Assembly: GCF_025397915.1 (NCBI RefSeq)
Contig: NZ_JALIDZ010000003.1
Location: forward strand, 320,501 to 384,500
Direction: 5' to 3'
From: Microbaculum marinisediminis
Lineage (GTDB): Bacteria > Pseudomonadota > Alphaproteobacteria > Rhizobiales > Tepidamorphaceae
DNA length: 64,000 nt
In this document: positions 17,640 to 52,545 of the stretch, piece after piece
Numbering within the stretch: position 1 is the first letter of the stretch
Layout: each line of letters starts with the position of its first letter
Made by a program: the position numbers and the translations under genes
The notes under the pieces: generated by a model
Databases searched by the model: none
What the model saw: only the letters and a program-made list of their open reading frames with translations
Told to the model about the DNA's origin: nothing

Positions 17640-17790
17640 CGCCCGCCGCGATAGCTACATTCCAGACGGCGAGGCTGCCCGGTGCGACAGGAGACTCAAT
17701 TCCCCGGGGCCTTATCGATCTCCTTGGGAGCTGTCCCTGGTTGAGCCCGTGGGCTCTTTCATACGGCGCCCACCTACGTATGTAGGTTCC
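17640..17790 (+). ncRNA. ssrS: 6S RNA (approximate ends)
   Basis: The zapA-to-cyclo-ligase gap holds a non-coding block with the features of alphaproteobacterial 6S RNA: TTCCCCGGGGCCTTATCGAT in the central region (17700-17719), GGGAGCTGTCCCTGG on the other arm, and the 3' part ACGGCGCCCACCTACG. CTACAT (17655-17660) can pair with ATGTAG (17780-17785) as a closing stem. A perfect 5-bp hairpin CCTAC-GTAT-GTAGG (17773-17786) competes with that pairing. 6S RNA binds sigma-70 RNA polymerase. Ends are estimated; the identity rests on position and recalled sequence. Confidence 0.78.
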
Positions 17791-17869
17791 CGGGATCGCT
17801 GCTCTCCACCGGCCGCGGCGGCTTCGCCATCCCACCGTTTTCCGTCCCGTGTCGTCCCCGGATCCCCGC

Positions 17870-39389: not shown

Positions 39390-39448
39390 TACCCCCATCC
39401 GTGGGACACCCCTCCCCAACGAGGGGCACCTATCTGGAAGGGTAGAGG
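39390..39448 (+). promoter_or_regulatory. serC-type leader RNA element
   Basis: Directly before serC lie three small hairpins: CCCA/TGGG (39394-39405), CCCCTC/GAGGGG (39409-39426, loop CCCAAC) and CTATC/GGTAG (39430-39445). This fits the serC leader known from alphaproteobacteria as a putative cis-regulatory RNA. The ribosome site AAGGG (39438-39442) is in the loop and closing arm of the last hairpin, so control of translation is possible. The ligand is not known. Identification is by gene context and recalled sequence. Confidence 0.7.
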
Positions 39449-39451
39449 CAC

Positions 39452-44173: not shown

Positions 44174-44806
44174 TCACGGCATAGGGATCGGCTGGCCGCG
44201 GGCAGGCGTATCGTAGCCCTTCTGCACGGCGGGCCGTTCGGCGATGCGCAGGTACCAGTCCCTGACGTTCGGAAACGCGTTGATGTCGATGCCCTGCCAC
44301 GCGAACCGCGAGGCCCAGGGCCAGGTGGCGATATCGGCTATGGAGTATTCGCCGACGATGAAGTCCTTGCCCTGAAGCTGCTTGTCGAGCACGCCATAAA
44401 GCCGGGACGCCTCCTTGGCGTAGCGTTCCTCGGCATACTCGGCCTTGCCCGGGTTGAAGTGCAGAAAGTGGTGGGCCTGGCCGAGCATCGGCCCGAACCC
44501 GCCCATCTGCCACATCAGCCACTCGACCGTGCGCCAGTAGCCGACCTCGCCGGAGGGAACGAGCTTGCCGGTCTTCCCGGCGAGATAGAGCAGGATCGCG
44601 CCGGATTCCATCAGCGACAGGCCGTCGTTGTCGTTGTCGACGATCGCCGGGATCTTGTTGTTGGGGCTGATCTTCAGGAACGCGGGAGCGAACTGCTGGT
44701 CCTTGGTGATGTCGATCTCGTGGACCCTGTAGGGCAGGCCGAGCTCTTCCAGAGCGATCGAAACCTTGCGGCCGTTCGGCGTGGACCAGGTGTAGAGGTC
44801 GATCAC
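44174..44806 (-). CDS. glutathione S-transferase family protein (YfcG-like)
   Basis: The 210-residue protein has the GST thioredoxin-like domain MIDLYTWSTPNGRKVSIALE with the glutathione-site NNKIPAIVD (about 49-57) and LMESGAILLYLA (about 65-76), then the helical domain with WLMWQMGGFGPMLGQAHHF and YSIADIATWPW. It belongs to the Nu/YfcG group, which often acts as a glutathione-dependent disulfide reductase. It seems monocistronic. Confidence 0.88.
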   Translation of the reverse strand: MIDLYTWSTPNGRKVSIALEELGLPYRVHEIDITKDQQFAPAFLKISPNNKIPAIVDNDNDGLSLMESGAILLYLAGKTGKLVPSGEVGYWRTVEWLMWQMGGFGPMLGQAHHFLHFNPGKAEYAEERYAKEASRLYGVLDKQLQGKDFIVGEYSIADIATWPWASRFAWQGIDINAFPNVRDWYLRIAERPAVQKGYDTPARGQPIPMP

Positions 44807-44991
44807 GGCGTTCTCCTTGAGGTGGGACGATCAGGGAAACGCTACTCTACATGGGGGGCCGCGGATTTGAAGGCTGTCTCGGGACAAGCTGATGTGTCGG
44901 CTCGGCCGGGAGCGGCGGGCGCGCCGTGCCACACGCCCGAGATGTCCGGGTCAGGCCCGACAACGACGTCGAGGGGAAGACAGTTTGTGCG

Positions 44992-45022
44992 CGTCATGCC
45001 CGGGCCAGGCCCGGGCATGACG
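44992..45022. repeat. perfect 31-bp palindrome (REP-like)
   Basis: CGTCATGCCCGGGCC (44992-45006) and its exact reverse complement (45008-45022) flank one central base. A degenerate relative lies just before it (about 44935-44968). The sequence is typical of short dispersed palindromes seen in Rhizobiales intergenic DNA. It lies between the GST gene and the 3' end of the thiamine-type transporter genes and may act as their terminator. Confidence 0.8.
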
Positions 45023-45046
45023 GTCGACGGGGCCTCGGCCCGTATC

Positions 45047-45985
45047 TCAGTTCAGCTCCACCGCGTAGGTCTCGACCGGGACGATCTCCTCGATCAGGCC
45101 GCGGTCCTTCATGAACGCGGCGAAGCGCGCGTAACGGCCGGTATCGAGCGCGGCAGGGCGCTTGGCGAACCGGGGCAGGGTGTCGAACCAGGCGCGCTCG
45201 TTGAGCTCGTCCTCCAGTTCGGGGTGCTTCGCCACGAATAGGTCCCAGCCTTCCTCGGGGTGGTTGGTCAGCCAGATCGTCGCCAGCTCGACCGCCGTGA
45301 CGAAACGCGAGAGCCGGTCATCGTCCAGCGCGTCGTTGCGGGCGATGAAGACCAGCTCGTCGTAGACCGGGACGCCGTTCTCCTCCGGATAGAAGGCGCG
45401 CCCGGGACGCTCCTCGATCTCCATTTGGTTCAGCTCGAAATTGCGGAAGGCGCCGATCACGGCGTCGACCTGACCGGCGAACAGCGAGGGCGACAGCGAG
45501 AAGTTGACGTTGACGAGCTTGACGTCGTCGAGCGTCAGTCCCGCCGTCTCCAGCATCGCGCCGAGCAGGGCGTCCTCGAAGCCGCCGACCGAGAAGCCGA
45601 CGGTCTTGTCCTTGAGGTCGGCGATGCCGGCGATCGGTCCGTCTTCCAGCACGACCAGCGAATTGAGCGGCGTCTCGACCAGCGTGCCGATTCGGCTGAG
45701 CGGCAGGCCCTCCTTCACCTGCATGTGCAGGTTGGGCTGATAGGACACGGCGATGTCGGCCTGGCCGCTGGCGACGAGGCGCGGCGGTGCGCTGGGGTCG
45801 GCCGGCGGCACCAGCTCGACGTCGAGGCCCTGGTCGGCGAAGTAGCCCTTCTCCGCGGCGACGATCAGCGGGGCGTGGTCGGGATTGACGAACCAGTCGA
45901 GCAGCACGGTGAGCTTGTCGGCGGCGGAGGCGCCAAGCGGGGCGAGGCCGGCGAGCAGGGTGAGGGCAAAAAGCAGGGAACGCAT
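45047..45985 (-). CDS. NMT1/THI5-like ABC transporter substrate-binding protein
   Basis: The 312-residue protein has a signal peptide (residues 1-21, ending GASA-AD) and the NMT1/THI5-like periplasmic fold: KLTVLLDWFVNPDHAPLIVA, AEKGYFADQGLDVELVPPAD, SGQADIAVSYQPNL and KDKTVGFSVGGFEDALLG. With the TPP riboswitch upstream this points to uptake of a pyrimidine precursor of thiamine (ThiY type). It lies 25 bp after the permease gene. The start at 45985 gives the signal peptide. Confidence 0.9.
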   Translation of the reverse strand: MRSLLFALTLLAGLAPLGASAADKLTVLLDWFVNPDHAPLIVAAEKGYFADQGLDVELVPPADPSAPPRLVASGQADIAVSYQPNLHMQVKEGLPLSRIGTLVETPLNSLVVLEDGPIAGIADLKDKTVGFSVGGFEDALLGAMLETAGLTLDDVKLVNVNFSLSPSLFAGQVDAVIGAFRNFELNQMEIEERPGRAFYPEENGVPVYDELVFIARNDALDDDRLSRFVTAVELATIWLTNHPEEGWDLFVAKHPELEDELNERAWFDTLPRFAKRPAALDTGRYARFAAFMKDRGLIEEIVPVETYAVELN

Positions 45986-46010
45986 AGTGTTGTTGGCTCC
46001 GTTGGTGTGA

Positions 46011-46760
46011 TCAGGTTTCGCTTTCCGCGATCCACGGCACCATGCGCCTGGCGAGCGCATCGACGAGGGCGCGTATGAGGAGCGCCATCAGGCCGAGGAG
46101 GAAGAGAGCGGCGAACAGCATGTCGGTCTGCATGCGGGCATTGGCCTGCAGCATGACGAATCCAAGGCCGGCGGAGGCGCCGACCCACTCGCCGACCACC
46201 GCGCCGATCGGGGCGACGGCGGCGGCGACGCGCAGGCCGGAGGCAAGGCCGGGCAGGGCGGAGGGCAGGCGGATCAGCCGCAGCGTGTCGAAACGGCTGG
46301 CGCCGCTGATTGCGGCGAGATCGAGCAGGCCCGGATCGGTGCGCCGCAAGCCGTCGAGGAAGGCCGAGGCGACTGGGAAGAATATGATCAGCGTCGCCAT
46401 GACGATCTTCGAGGCGAGGCCGAAGCCGAGCCAGATGACGAGCAGCGGCGCGATGGCGAAGACCGGCAGGGCCTGGCTCGCCACCATCACCGGCAGCAGC
46501 ACCCGTCCGGCGGCCGGGAACAGGCTGGCGGCGAGCGCGGTGGCAACGCCCAGCCCGGCGCCGACGATGAGGCCGATCACGATTTCGATCGCCGTCACCG
46601 CCGCGTTGCGGGCAAGAAATTCGGGCTGGGCCATCAGCTGTGCCGCGATCCGGGTCGGCGGCGGCAGGATGTAGCCGGGTACGGCGAATGCCGTCACCAA
46701 GGCCTGCCAGACCCCCAGGATCAGCGCGGCAATGACGACCGCCCGCAGGAGGCGCGTCAT
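46011..46760 (-). CDS. ABC transporter permease for thiamine precursor (ThiX-like)
   Basis: The 249-residue inner-membrane permease of the SsuC/TauC/ThiX kind has six helices and the coupling motif near LIRLPSALPGLASGLRVAAA (about residues 155-174), followed by PIGAVVGEWVGASAGLG. Its ATG lies 4 nt after the stop of the leader reading frame and has no clear ribosome site of its own, which suggests translational coupling. The gene order is riboswitch, leader peptide, permease, binding protein. No ATPase gene is present in the unit. Confidence 0.88.
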   Translation of the reverse strand: MTRLLRAVVIAALILGVWQALVTAFAVPGYILPPPTRIAAQLMAQPEFLARNAAVTAIEIVIGLIVGAGLGVATALAASLFPAAGRVLLPVMVASQALPVFAIAPLLVIWLGFGLASKIVMATLIIFFPVASAFLDGLRRTDPGLLDLAAISGASRFDTLRLIRLPSALPGLASGLRVAAAVAPIGAVVGEWVGASAGLGFVMLQANARMQTDMLFAALFLLGLMALLIRALVDALARRMVPWIAESET

Positions 46761-46764
46761 CGGA

Positions 46765-46818
46765 TCAGCCCGGCAGGGGTGGGGCCGGCGGCGGGTGGTG
46801 AAAGGTCTTACGCATCAT
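46765..46818 (-). CDS. possible 17-residue proline-rich leader peptide
   Basis: A short frame runs from ATG at 46818 to TGA at 46767-46765, coding for MMRKTFHHPPPAPPLPG. GAGAGGAG lies 4 nt before the ATG, a better ribosome site than any before the permease, which starts 4 nt after this stop. PPP followed by PP would slow ribosomes in the absence of EF-P. The position between a TPP riboswitch and the transporter suggests a translated leader. It could also be chance; coding cannot be proved from 17 codons. Confidence 0.45.
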   Translation of the reverse strand: MMRKTFHHPPPAPPLPG

Positions 46819-46849
46819 GGATCTCCTCTCGCGTGACACAGGGAGATCC
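46819..46849 (-). promoter_or_regulatory. hairpin hiding the leader ribosome binding site
   Basis: On the minus strand GGATCTCC (46849-46842) pairs perfectly with GGAGATCC (46826-46819) around a 15-nt loop. The right arm contains the GGAG ribosome site of the leader frame. It is placed as the expression platform of the TPP riboswitch, which would then act on translation rather than termination. Confidence 0.55.
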
Positions 46850-46875
46850 GGGGAATTCGGGCTCAGGGGAAGCAG

Positions 46876-46984
46876 GTTCCAGTCCCTTCGCCGGTATGAC
46901 CCGGATCAGGTTCGAAGGGTTCGGTCGGACCACCCTTGCGGGCGGAGGGACCATCTCAGCTCCTTTCGGAGCACCCCTCGGAAC
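46876..46984 (-). promoter_or_regulatory. TPP riboswitch (THI element)
   Basis: Read on the minus strand, the aptamer has all conserved parts: GAGGGGTGC, CTGAGAT after a short stem, then ACCCTTCGAACCTGATCCGG and GTCATACCGGCGAAGGGA. GTTCC (46984-46980) and GGAAC (46880-46876) close the first helix. It binds thiamine pyrophosphate and should turn off the downstream permease and binding-protein genes when thiamine is plentiful. Confidence 0.95.
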
Positions 46985-47062: not shown

Positions 47063-48607
47063 CTACTGCGCGCCCCACGTCGAGAAGGCTTCCTGGAATA
47101 TCGCCTTGCCGGACTCGCCCTTGGCCAGCGACAGTACCGCGCGGCCGCCATCCTTGTAGCTGACCGGGATGTCGATGAAGTCGCGCGCGGTGATTTCCTG
47201 GACGTTTCGTTCCTGGTCGATCTCCGTCTGCGACAGGCCGATGAGGAAGTAGTTGTCCATCACCGGCACCACGGCACCGACGAGCGGCTGGCCGGTGGAG
47301 CGCGGCGTCGCCTTCATGATCAGTCCCGGGATCGAGGCGATGCCGTCATGCGTGAAGCCGGGGCCGGTCTGGAAGACGAGCTCGATGAGATGGCTTGCCG
47401 GCAGCGCCTGGTCCTTGTTGCGCCGGACGGTGACGGTGACCTTGAGGTCCCGCTCCGGGACGCTGACATCGCCGCGGATGACCTTTTCGGCGCCGCCGAC
47501 CGCCTCCGTGTCGTCGACGAGCTTCCAGTCCACCGAGCCGCCGAGCGTGCTTGCCGGTGACACGCCGCCGGCGCTTTCCTCGATCAGCAGGGCCTGGGCG
47601 ACGCGCTCTCCTTCGGCATCGGCCGACGGTGGTTGCTGAACGGGCGCCTGCGGCGCCGCGGTCGGCTGACCAGCGCCGGGTTCGGTTGCCGGCTCCCCGG
47701 GGCCGGGCACCCGGTCGGCGATCTTGCCGTTGCCCGCGGTGTCGGTCGTCTCCTGCGAACCGCTCAGCGAGGTGATCATGGTCGTCAGCGCCTCGCGCTG
47801 CCAGAAGCCGACACCGACGATGCCGACGATGACCAGCAGCAGGATGCCCCAGGCGACAAAGCGTCCGGAGCCGCCGCGCTCGATGTCATCGTCCTCGTCG
47901 TAGAGGTCGGCGGCGGGCGGCGCCTGCCGTCCCGAAGTTGGCGGCGGCGGTGCTTGATGGCCCGCGGCCGGCTGGCGCGCGGGGCCTCCGGCCTGGGCCG
48001 GTGCGGGGGCCTGAGCCGGCGCTGCGGCTGGAGCAGGAGCTGGTGTGGGAGCCGGAGCCGGAGCTGGGGCCCGGGCCGGTGCCTGGGCGGCTGCCGGGGA
48101 TGAGGCCGGCGGCGTTGCAGGTTTCTGCGCTGCAGGTTTCGGGGCCTCCGGCTGCCCGGCGGGGCGGCGCGGGGCAGAAGGCGGGGGCGGGGCGCCCAGA
48201 GACGGTTCACGCCTCTCGGGCGGCGCCATGCCGGACGGGCCGGCACCACGACGGGTGTCTTCGTCCTGGCCGTCCCCGTCGATGCGGTCGAGGGTCTCGC
48301 GTGCCTCGCGGGCCGCCGTTGACGCGGCGCCGCCTAGGGTGCCGGATTCGGACACGGCGGACTGGAACGCCTCGTGGGCTTCCAGCGGCTTCGGCTGGGG
48401 CGCGAACTCGGTCTCCAGCTCTCCGACCGCCGTGTCAAGGCTATCGATCTGGCGGGCGATGTCGTCCGGCCCGAGCGGCGGGTCGATCGCCTCGAGCTGC
48501 GCACGCAGAGCCGCGCGTGCCTTGTCGTATATCGCGTGCCGCGCGGCTTCGGTGTTGTTCTCGAGGTTAGCGACGGCGCGCCTGAGTACGGAAACGAAAT
48601 CTGCCAT
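47063..48607 (-). CDS. conserved single-pass membrane protein, function unknown
   Basis: The 514-residue protein starts MADFVSVLRRAVANLENNTE and has an N-terminal helical domain (residues 1-75), a long Pro/Ala-rich linker (about 110-210), one membrane helix (about 230-250, FVAWGILLLVIVGIVGVGFW) and a C-terminal beta-rich domain (about 310-514). The cytoplasmic N-terminus and periplasmic C-terminus follow from the charge pattern. I recognise it only as a Rhizobiales hypothetical protein. It is transcribed just ahead of the TPP riboswitch and 34 bp after purA on the same strand. Confidence 0.75.
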   Translation of the reverse strand: MADFVSVLRRAVANLENNTEAARHAIYDKARAALRAQLEAIDPPLGPDDIARQIDSLDTAVGELETEFAPQPKPLEAHEAFQSAVSESGTLGGAASTAAREARETLDRIDGDGQDEDTRRGAGPSGMAPPERREPSLGAPPPPSAPRRPAGQPEAPKPAAQKPATPPASSPAAAQAPARAPAPAPAPTPAPAPAAAPAQAPAPAQAGGPARQPAAGHQAPPPPTSGRQAPPAADLYDEDDDIERGGSGRFVAWGILLLVIVGIVGVGFWQREALTTMITSLSGSQETTDTAGNGKIADRVPGPGEPATEPGAGQPTAAPQAPVQQPPSADAEGERVAQALLIEESAGGVSPASTLGGSVDWKLVDDTEAVGGAEKVIRGDVSVPERDLKVTVTVRRNKDQALPASHLIELVFQTGPGFTHDGIASIPGLIMKATPRSTGQPLVGAVVPVMDNYFLIGLSQTEIDQERNVQEITARDFIDIPVSYKDGGRAVLSLAKGESGKAIFQEAFSTWGAQ

Positions 48608-51029: not shown

Positions 51030-51411
51030 TTTGCGCAGTAGAGGCGAAGCACATACATACGCGCTCGCCCAATATTCGCACGTGCCTGTGGTCGCCGGGC
51101 TACCCCCCGGAAACTTCCTGCGGGTGGCGACTTAAAGCAACGACGGTGCGGGCTTTTTTGGTCTCTGCCGGCTCCTCCAAAAGCCGGGGTTACTGAAGAG
51201 GCACACCATCCTTGCCCGACGTGCGGTTCGGCACTCCCGATCCAATCAAAGGCAACCAGGTTCCGGACGTGGAATCGGTTTGACGATCGCGTTCGCGCAT
51301 CCGGAGCACAGTAGTCGGCGTTCACGCTGACGGCTTCCGCGTCTCCAAAGCGCGGGTGCCGAAGGCGTGGGCACCGGTGGTTTGAACCTTTGAGATTGGG
51401 AGCCAAACCCG
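51030..51411 (+). promoter_or_regulatory. candidate speF-type leader RNA
   Basis: A 390-bp gap before the decarboxylase gene shows structured, non-coding sequence: GTCGCC...ACCC pairs with GGGTGGCGAC (about 51090-51135, with a 5-nt bulge), CCGGCT pairs with AGCCGG (about 51168-51187), and GGTGCC pairs with GGCACC (about 51355-51384) near the start codon. This fits the speF leader described upstream of ornithine decarboxylase genes in alphaproteobacteria. I rely on context and recall; polyamine sensing is not proved. The promoter should lie in the first 50 bases. Confidence 0.6.
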
Positions 51412-52545
51412 ATGACCACCGACCGTATTCGCTCATTCCTCGCCGAGCGACGCCCCGAAGGCCCCTGCCTCGTCGTCGACCTCGATGTCGTGCGCGAGAA
51501 CTACAACGCCTTCACCCGGGCGCTGCCGGACAGCCGCATCTTCTACGCGGTCAAGGCCAATCCGGCTCCGGAGATCCTGAGCTTGCTCGCCGAGCTCGGC
51601 TCGTCGTTCGACACCGCCTCGCTCACCGAGATCGAGCTGGCGCTAGCCGCCGGCGCGGCGGCCGACCGAATCTCCTACGGCAACACGATCAAGAAGGAGC
51701 GCGACATCGCGCGCGCCTACGAGCTCGGCGTGCGCCTGTTCGCCGTCGACAGCTTCGAGGAGGTCGACAAGATCGCCCGCGCCGCGCCCGGTTCGCGAGT
51801 GTTCTGCCGTGTTCTGACCGACGGCGAGGGCGCCGAATGGCCGCTCAGCCGCAAGTTCGGCTGCGCGCCGGAGATGGCGATCGAGGTGCTCGAGCACGCT
51901 CACCGCTCGGGCGTGGTCGCCGCCGGCGTCTCGTTCCATGTCGGCTCGCAGCAGCGCGACACCGGAGCCTGGGAACGGGCTCTCGCCACCGCGGCGACTG
52001 TGTTCCGGACGCTTGCCGAACGCGGCATCACGCTGACGCTGGTCAATCTCGGCGGTGGCTTCCCGACCCGCTATCTCAGGGACGTGCCGACGGTCGCCAG
52101 CTATGGCGAGTCGATCTTCGACGCGCTCAGCCGCCATTTCGGCAACCGCCTGCCCGAGACGATCATCGAGCCGGGCCGCGGCATGGTCGGCGGCGCCGGC
52201 GTCATCAAGACCGAGGTCGTGTTGATCGCGCGCAAGAGCGCCGAGGATCCGGTGCGCTGGGTGTATCTCGACATCGGCAAGTTCGGCGGTCTCGCCGAGA
52301 CGATGGACGAGGCGATCCGCTATCCGATCCGCACGCAGCGCGACGGCGGCGAGGTCGCTCCCTGCATCCTTGCCGGCCCGACCTGCGACTCCGCCGACGT
52401 GCTCTACGAGCGCGAGCCCTATCCGCTGCCGACGGGGCTGGAGATCGGCGACGAGATCCTCATCGAGGCCACCGGCGCCTATACGACGACCTATGCGTCC
52501 GTCGCCTTCAACGGCTTCGCGCCGCTGCAAGCCTACGTGATCTGA
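51412..52545 (+). CDS. speC: ornithine/lysine decarboxylase, fold III (eukaryotic-like)
   Basis: The 377-residue PLP enzyme is of the alanine-racemase-fold type. The PLP lysine is K48 in FYAVKANPAPEI, followed by SFHVGSQQRD (about 183-192), GGGFPTRY and EPGRGMVGGAG. The C-terminal AGPTCDSADVLYE holds the catalytic cysteine. It makes putrescine (or cadaverine) for homospermidine synthase, encoded two genes downstream. The GGGAGCC ribosome site precedes the ATG. Substrate preference between ornithine and lysine cannot be told. Rfam-style naming would also call it speF. Confidence 0.9.
   Translation: MTTDRIRSFLAERRPEGPCLVVDLDVVRENYNAFTRALPDSRIFYAVKANPAPEILSLLAELGSSFDTASLTEIELALAAGAAADRISYGNTIKKERDIARAYELGVRLFAVDSFEEVDKIARAAPGSRVFCRVLTDGEGAEWPLSRKFGCAPEMAIEVLEHAHRSGVVAAGVSFHVGSQQRDTGAWERALATAATVFRTLAERGITLTLVNLGGGFPTRYLRDVPTVASYGESIFDALSRHFGNRLPETIIEPGRGMVGGAGVIKTEVVLIARKSAEDPVRWVYLDIGKFGGLAETMDEAIRYPIRTQRDGGEVAPCILAGPTCDSADVLYEREPYPLPTGLEIGDEILIEATGAYTTTYASVAFNGFAPLQAYVI

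Follow-up and report, generated by a model that had tools for sequence, protein, structure and literature searches.

A TPP riboswitch in Hyphomicrobiales probably controls a thiamine-related permease through a short relay ORF kept for its translation rather than its peptide

Riboswitches that act on a small upstream ORF have been described in Mycobacterium tuberculosis, and the closest precedent for the locus reported here is the B12 riboswitch of ppe2. According to the available passages of that study, it is a translational OFF switch which masks the Shine-Dalgarno (SD) sequence of an out-of-frame uORF, uPPE2; ppe2 itself has no obvious SD, shares an AUGA with the uORF and depends for its expression on uORF translation, mostly through termination-reinitiation (PMC11260477). 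The same passages report that the uORF is partially conserved and that uPPE2 has a C-terminal polyproline stretch (PMC11260477). Our locus resembles ppe2, as far as sequence can tell, in its riboswitch-maskable uORF SD, its main gene without an SD, and its uORF stop at the main start. It differs in that ppe2 is one locus with a B12 aptamer, whereas here a TPP aptamer precedes a thiamine-related permease in many genera, and in that the leader peptide evolves neutrally where this was tested and in-frame fused variants occur.

Two further systems share parts of the design. The Mbox of M. tuberculosis pe20 directly controls the uORF rv1805A via a translational platform, likewise a riboswitch on a small upstream ORF; the accessible text describes rv1805A as highly conserved with a homologue elsewhere, whereas the leader peptide here is not conserved (PMC12810186). 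The SAM-II riboswitch of Sinorhizobium meliloti metA is an alphaproteobacterial riboswitch whose SD is needed for, and serves, a distant start codon, with translation starting 74 nt downstream; its AUG1 and AUG2 are in frame, however, and the abstract of that study does not invoke a distinct leader ORF whose stop is coupled (PMC9373788). Among the matches listed, no open-access title or abstract opening described a leader ORF downstream of a TPP riboswitch in any bacterium, which is weak evidence, and in a study of S. meliloti small proteins the passages searched for riboswitches, thiamine, TPP and thi described no such locus (PMC10117765). The initial annotation of this DNA had known of no riboswitch-plus-polyproline-leader design for this transporter; the general design is not new, because riboswitch-gated coupled leader ORFs are described in M. 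tuberculosis (PMC11260477). What is new here is a TPP riboswitch that appears to reach its gene by way of a relay ORF in which selection acts on translation rather than on the peptide, an instance of a kind of control already known.

The window that we analysed is a stretch of 64,000 nucleotides from Microbaculum marinisediminis (contig NZ_JALIDZ010000003.1, positions 320,501 to 384,500), and the locus lies on its minus strand (Table 1). The aptamer scores well above the RF00059 gathering threshold of 54.3 bits and covers all 105 model positions. On its 3' side, GGATCTCC and GGAGATCC form a perfect 8-bp stem around a 15-nt loop, with GGAG inside the stem; we call this hairpin the gate. The leader ORF that follows starts with ATGATG, and therefore has 17 codons from the first ATG (46818-46816) and 16 from the second, placed 4 and 7 nt after GGAG, respectively. 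It encodes PPP and PP and ends in a TGA stop (46767-46765), after which only TCCG intervenes before the permease ATG (46760-46758). That ATG is the sole in-frame start found for the permease, and no SD precedes it under a rule of at least 4 matching nt at a spacing of 3-10. SD matches were scored against the anti-SD sequence as generally known. The aptamer with its GGAG hairpin, the short frame with its proline runs and its stop, and the absence of a good ribosome site at the permease had all been described in the initial annotation and are borne out here.

Table 1. Features of the riboswitch-leader-permease locus in the window
Feature	Position	Strand	Basis or remark
TPP riboswitch aptamer, RF00059	46865..46988	-	cmscan 75.2 bits, E 5.2e-13
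GATCCGG within the aptamer, candidate anti-sequestor	46901..46907	-	complementary to CCGGATC of the gate 5' arm; pairing inferred
Gate 5' arm CCGGATCTCC, recurrent motif	46842..46851	-	its GGATCTCC part pairs with the SD arm
GGATCTCC, left half of the stem	46849-46842	-	sequence
Gate 3' arm GGAGATCC, holds the leader SD	46819..46826	-	perfect 8-bp stem
Leader (relay) ORF MMRKTFHHPPPAPPLPG and stop	46765..46818	-	sequence; relatives keep frame and stop position
ABC permease, ThiX-like by context, 249 aa	46011..46760	-	PF00528, 103.6 bits (BPD-type)
NMT1/THI5-like (ThiY-like) substrate-binding protein	45047..46060	-	PF09084, 236.5 bits

With a TPP riboswitch ahead of a BPD-type permease and, next to it, a binding protein of the NMT1/THI5-like kind (RF00059, PF00528 and PF09084), this is a ThiXY(Z)-type locus. 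The name ThiX rests on context, since scores stayed below every NCBIfam equivalog cut-off. The binding protein is given as its longest ORF, which overlaps the end of the permease, and its true start may be further in. No ATPase (ThiZ) was identified directly after these two genes (44174-45047, minus strand); the next scanned minus-strand gene encodes a GST-family protein (44806-44174). Just upstream of the riboswitch, a Pro/Ala-rich ORF of 514 aa (47063-48607, minus strand) matched nothing in Pfam or NCBIfam at E 0.001. Elsewhere in the window, on the plus strand, matches to the ar45 sRNA and the speF leader adjoin at 51067-51318, before an ORF at 51412 that we take to be a decarboxylase from the way it reads, and other Rfam matches are the BjrC1505 sRNA (2335-2472), 6S RNA (17669-17828) and a serC leader (39399-39450).

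The layout recurs among close relatives, with different peptides. The window's genus is represented by three genomes, that of the window (G000), G001 and G002, and only two of these have split leaders. In G002, whose permease is 90% identical, the same hairpin has one G-U pair and the leader MKNTTDRPPPNPSG likewise stops 4 nt upstream of the permease start, there a GTG. In G001 (permease 82% identical) the gate is the same and the post-hairpin start is in frame with the permease, giving it an N-terminal extension. Further out in the family, G007 has the hairpin and a leader, MLACCLARPSHTVPARRQD, which stops 7 nt before the permease start, and G005 has the hairpin and a leader, MRRIHRAASTPRNPRQR, ending either 6 or 12 nt ahead of a permease start, depending on the start chosen; these two leaders are unrelated. 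Two other genomes of the family (f1) have no such gate (G003 and G004), and in one no such permease passed the threshold applied (G006).

To place these cases in a wider sample we pooled 310 permease loci from overlapping sets: contig-search loci (n = 80), the window's family, a sample of the order (397 genomes, 145 of them matching and 131 taken, the 14 left out being nearly all the weakest matches), a sample of family f23, which we take to be Rhizobiaceae from its named members Rhizobium and Phyllobacterium (199 genomes sampled, matches from 57 used), and all 45 genomes of genus g109. Removal of 18 duplicates left 292 loci; the core pattern of the aptamer occurred upstream in 192 and was absent in 100. 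A locus was counted as gated if GGAG was covered by a stem with six or more Watson-Crick pairs and a start codon followed 3-11 nt on, a rule that is blind to the frames downstream. By this rule 88 of the 192 aptamer loci were gated, and 83 of them had a start codon, opening 62 leaders and 21 fusions. We then dropped 13 of the 192 rows because they repeated another row throughout the 100 nt surrounding the end of the aptamer, some of them from different genomes, to leave 179 distinct loci; substitution rates, anti-sequestor pairing, phase and identity in g109, PPP counts and permease-SD counts refer to the set before this stricter step. An earlier gate rule (a perfect stem of at least 6 bp over any of three SD cores) was set aside; it had found 31 of 120 loci and sometimes took a TTG beside a better GTG.

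Among the 179 distinct loci, 77 have an SD-gating hairpin and a start codon: 55 with a coupled leader, defined by a stop-to-permease-start distance between -4 and +12 nt, 19 with an in-frame fusion and three others. Dinucleotide-preserving shuffles of the leader DNA gave an expectation of 20.9 coupled, 15.8 fused and 40.3 other (tail about 2e-24), although such tails overstate independence, given that the loci share ancestry and that g109 alone supplies over half of the 55. Outside family f41, presumably Stappiaceae from its named member Pseudovibrio, 18 of the 30 gated loci are coupled, where shuffles predict 4.7, and 12 are fused, where they predict 12.4 (tail 6e-14). Thus 55 of the 58 non-fused gated loci have a coupled stop, and the commonest stop-start distances, -4 in 28 loci and -1 in nine, are ones at which the stop overlaps the start. 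The exceptions are L219 and L220, with a gate and a start but without a coupled stop, and L282, which is ambiguous. With 55 of 179 aptamer loci passing the strict rule, the gated and coupled layout is common but not universal. In the set of 192, the 104 loci without a strict gate comprise 81 without a strong SD, 15 with a direct arrangement, seven coupled (stop window -4 to +16) and one other; G002 falls with the coupled loci of this group because its gate has one G-U pair. Split and fused states are found together within the window's genus, within g109 and within genus g46 of f41 (split in G217, fused in G047 and G086), and therefore interconvert.

Genus g109 allowed us to ask what is conserved in the leader. 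A coupled leader is present by rule in 40 of its 45 genomes; three of the other five are fused (L199, L209 and L286), one is the ambiguous L282, and L269 is coupled only under a looser rule. Start-to-start distances among the 40 leaders take eight values, every one 2 mod 3, so that a single phase is kept. In the other two frames stops occur at 65 of 2498 codons, a rate at which a 32-codon stretch would stay open with a probability of 0.43 and 57% of such stretches would contain a stop. The peptides themselves differ widely, with a median pairwise identity of 0.495 against 0.457 when shuffled, and fall into 17-26 clusters at 60-70% identity. In 16 close pairs, some of which share members, the rates at codons with a single difference were 0.0839 per synonymous and 0.0844 per nonsynonymous site, and differences were spread over the three codon positions as 89, 95 and 77. 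Adjacent permease codons, serving as the control, gave 0.307 and 0.0231 (15 of the 16 pairs, as one did not align). The leader peptide thus seems free to drift, its neutrality being established in this one genus, and frame, openness and stop position are kept. Since the peptide drifts while frame and stop are retained, it is the passage of ribosomes, and not the peptide, that seems to matter. The parts of the locus, their recurrence, the constant phase, the non-random placement of stops and the neutral evolution of the peptide in one genus are all direct observations.

We propose that this is a translational TPP riboswitch acting through a relay ORF, whose terminating ribosomes start the permease, and we put the probability of this reading at roughly 0.8. 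At low TPP, the CCGGATC of the gate 5' arm would pair with the GATCCGG of the unfolded aptamer, freeing GGAG; ribosomes would then translate the short leader and terminate just 4 nt short of the permease ATG, and the permease would be started by termination-reinitiation or by the opening of local structure. With TPP bound, the aptamer would fold and the gate hairpin would close over GGAG, the leader would go untranslated, and the permease, having no SD of its own here, would not be started. TPP binding, the OFF direction, leader translation and reinitiation are the steps of this model that we infer. TPP riboswitches generally act OFF, and this behaviour, together with the anti-sequestor complementarity, is the basis for the direction proposed here. 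The window also contains what a ppe2-type coupled uORF would have, namely a maskable uORF SD, in the 8-bp gate, and a 4-nt stop gap.

The gate 5' arm has more bases than are needed to pair with the SD, and its CYGGATC complements the GATCCGG of the aptamer, which suggests that the unfolded aptamer could hold the gate arm open when TPP is absent. This predicted pairing is 7/7, with G-U allowed, in 79 of the 83 gated loci, those with the GATCTCC motif (CCGGATC in 65, fully Watson-Crick, and CTGGATC in 14; the motif is absent in four). It shows no covariation, because the aptamer segment is invariant in gated loci. In ligand-free fold predictions the closed gate is the minimum free energy (MFE) structure at -106.6 kcal/mol, against -102.6 kcal/mol for the anti-sequestor state, in which GGAG is still half paired, and thus the fold alone does not show switching. 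Of the TPP-bound and unbound folds that the initial annotation had called for, the ligand-free prediction favours the closed gate by 4 kcal/mol, and a simple MFE argument for switching was set aside as not decisive. The same annotation had suggested that the riboswitch gates the ribosome site of the leader and that the leader is coupled to the permease. Frame and stop position are kept in relatives, and both parts of the suggestion survive as most likely: the riboswitch in all likelihood gates the ribosome site of the leader, and coupling to the leader is the most likely route to permease translation. Of 59 permease starts in coupled loci, 25 are preceded by an SD of at least 4 nt, whereas the background rate is 1.8%; these permeases could start partly alone, and the relay may assist there rather than fully gate.

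Other readings of the same layout are less probable. The gated GGAG could be a standby site that reaches the permease start at a distance, without translation of the leader. The metA SAM-II riboswitch of S. meliloti offers an alphaproteobacterial precedent over a similar distance (PMC9373788), and the unconstrained peptide in g109 would fit; however, a standby site leaves unexplained the start codon at SD spacing, the open frame, the stops at the permease start and the single phase of 40 out of 40 leaders in g109, and we regard it as unlikely. Still less probable is a neutral, untranslated spacer with an accidental frame. Equal synonymous and nonsynonymous rates are what untranslated DNA would also give, but neither the placement of stops relative to the shuffles nor a phase held constant over eight distances, in stretches more than half of which should contain a stop, is expected of such a spacer. 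An assembly or sequencing frameshift could in principle have divided one N-terminally extended gene, as the in-frame fusion in G001 and the C-rich runs within the window's leader might hint. This artefact is rejected, and we give it the least weight of all, because the independent genome G002 is split in the same way, with its stop at the same place and a different leader sequence; the split state is also the commoner one, with 55 coupled against 19 fused loci (more than half of the 55 from one genus that was searched in full) and 18 against 12 outside f41.

A last alternative concerns the prolines. The initial annotation had proposed that slowing of ribosomes at PPP adds an EF-P-sensitive step. 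Salmonella mgtA has a 17-codon proline-rich leader ORF, mgtL. The effect of efp depends there on the proline codons of mgtL, according to the available passages of a study that also concerns prolines 550-551 of mgtA itself (PMC6460261). In both systems a transporter gene is preceded by a short leader ORF with prolines; in mgtL the proline codons matter, whereas here the residues are not kept among relatives, and no conserved residues or proline codons of the mgtL type were found in the leader peptides. PPP is present in both split leaders of the window's genus (G000 and G002) and in five of 59 leaders overall, the window's among them, against 1.7 expected by shuffling (P 0.03; the five are L003, L249, L303, L310 and L318, and the PPP of G002 lies outside this set). 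Yet 54 of the 59 leaders lack PPP, PP falls below expectation (9 against 14.0), the window leader's own composition yields PPP in 13% of shuffles, and the peptide evolves neutrally in g109. A polyproline sensor is thus very unlikely to explain the layout: the rates in g109 and the PPP and PP counts reject polyproline as a conserved feature of the group, and a general polyproline effect across leaders is not supported, with peptides unrelated between lineages. A genus-specific effect is possible in the window's genus, where the PPP is common to the two congeners. The synonymous-site bias that the annotation had proposed to look for in relatives is absent in g109, the nonsynonymous rate there being equal to the synonymous one; the short frame, whose conservation it had also asked about, is kept in frame and stop position in many relatives, though not in the peptide. 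As part of the relay model, we consider it probable that the leader peptide has no sequence-dependent job and that selection keeps frame, openness and the place of the stop.

We also examined other genes behind TPP riboswitches. The window genome has two TPP riboswitch matches, and the other one (L002, G000:C17, record 926-1027) precedes thiM, encoding hydroxyethylthiazole kinase (NF006830, 224.3 bits against a cut-off of 180; TIGR00694, 189 bits, below its cut-off of 256.4). Its leader has 23 codons, MKPNADLFSSFVIAARRFQGRLR, and ends in the A of the ATGA at the thiM start. Here the SD is a GGAGG inside the aptamer's own 3' strand, with the leader ATG at +35 from ACCTGA. Reading the best 30 of the loci from 103 matching genomes, together with loci from further searches, gave 34 distinct thiM loci: 16 with coupled leaders, whose stops lie -11 to -1 from an in-frame thiM start (a 4-nt overlap in ten), 13 fused, four with uncoupled leaders and one without an aptamer. 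The leader is present in eight of eight family genomes, and is less clean in three of them (L338, with a competing fused GTG; L347, at -11; and L349, at -8). A further thiM-like gene of G001, less closely related, follows a TPP riboswitch of its own but has no coupled leader (L352, G001:C103). In a mononucleotide-shuffle test (window -12 to +12) the 16 coupled loci compared with 9.9 expected (tail 6e-4), a smaller excess which makes the thiM case weaker than that of the permease. We further read nine loci in which TPP riboswitches precede thiC, recognised by a sequence signature that we take to be that of ThiC; seven were direct, one had no SD, and one had a short ORF of seven codons with a weak SD, itself ending in a 4-nt overlap. 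On balance, and with less assurance than for the permease, we favour the view that TPP riboswitches in Hyphomicrobiales commonly use relay ORFs selected only for translation and for a stop at the next gene, not for a peptide. The design would have arisen with two kinds of gate, a stand-alone SD hairpin ahead of the permease and, ahead of thiM, an SD within the aptamer, with flips between split and fused states within genera; relays were mostly absent from the few thiC loci examined.

If this model is true, a common riboswitch class would reach its regulated gene via an intermediate ORF that is conserved only in being translated, and comparison across dozens of genomes, rather than a single locus, would provide a clear example from nature in which translation itself is what selection acts on. 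Starts and small ORFs 3' of TPP riboswitches in this order may then be misannotated, and a reporter joined to the permease start alone could fail to capture the step under regulation. The natural variants, with stops from -4 to +12 and with fused and split forms in one genus, are ready material for work on termination-reinitiation.
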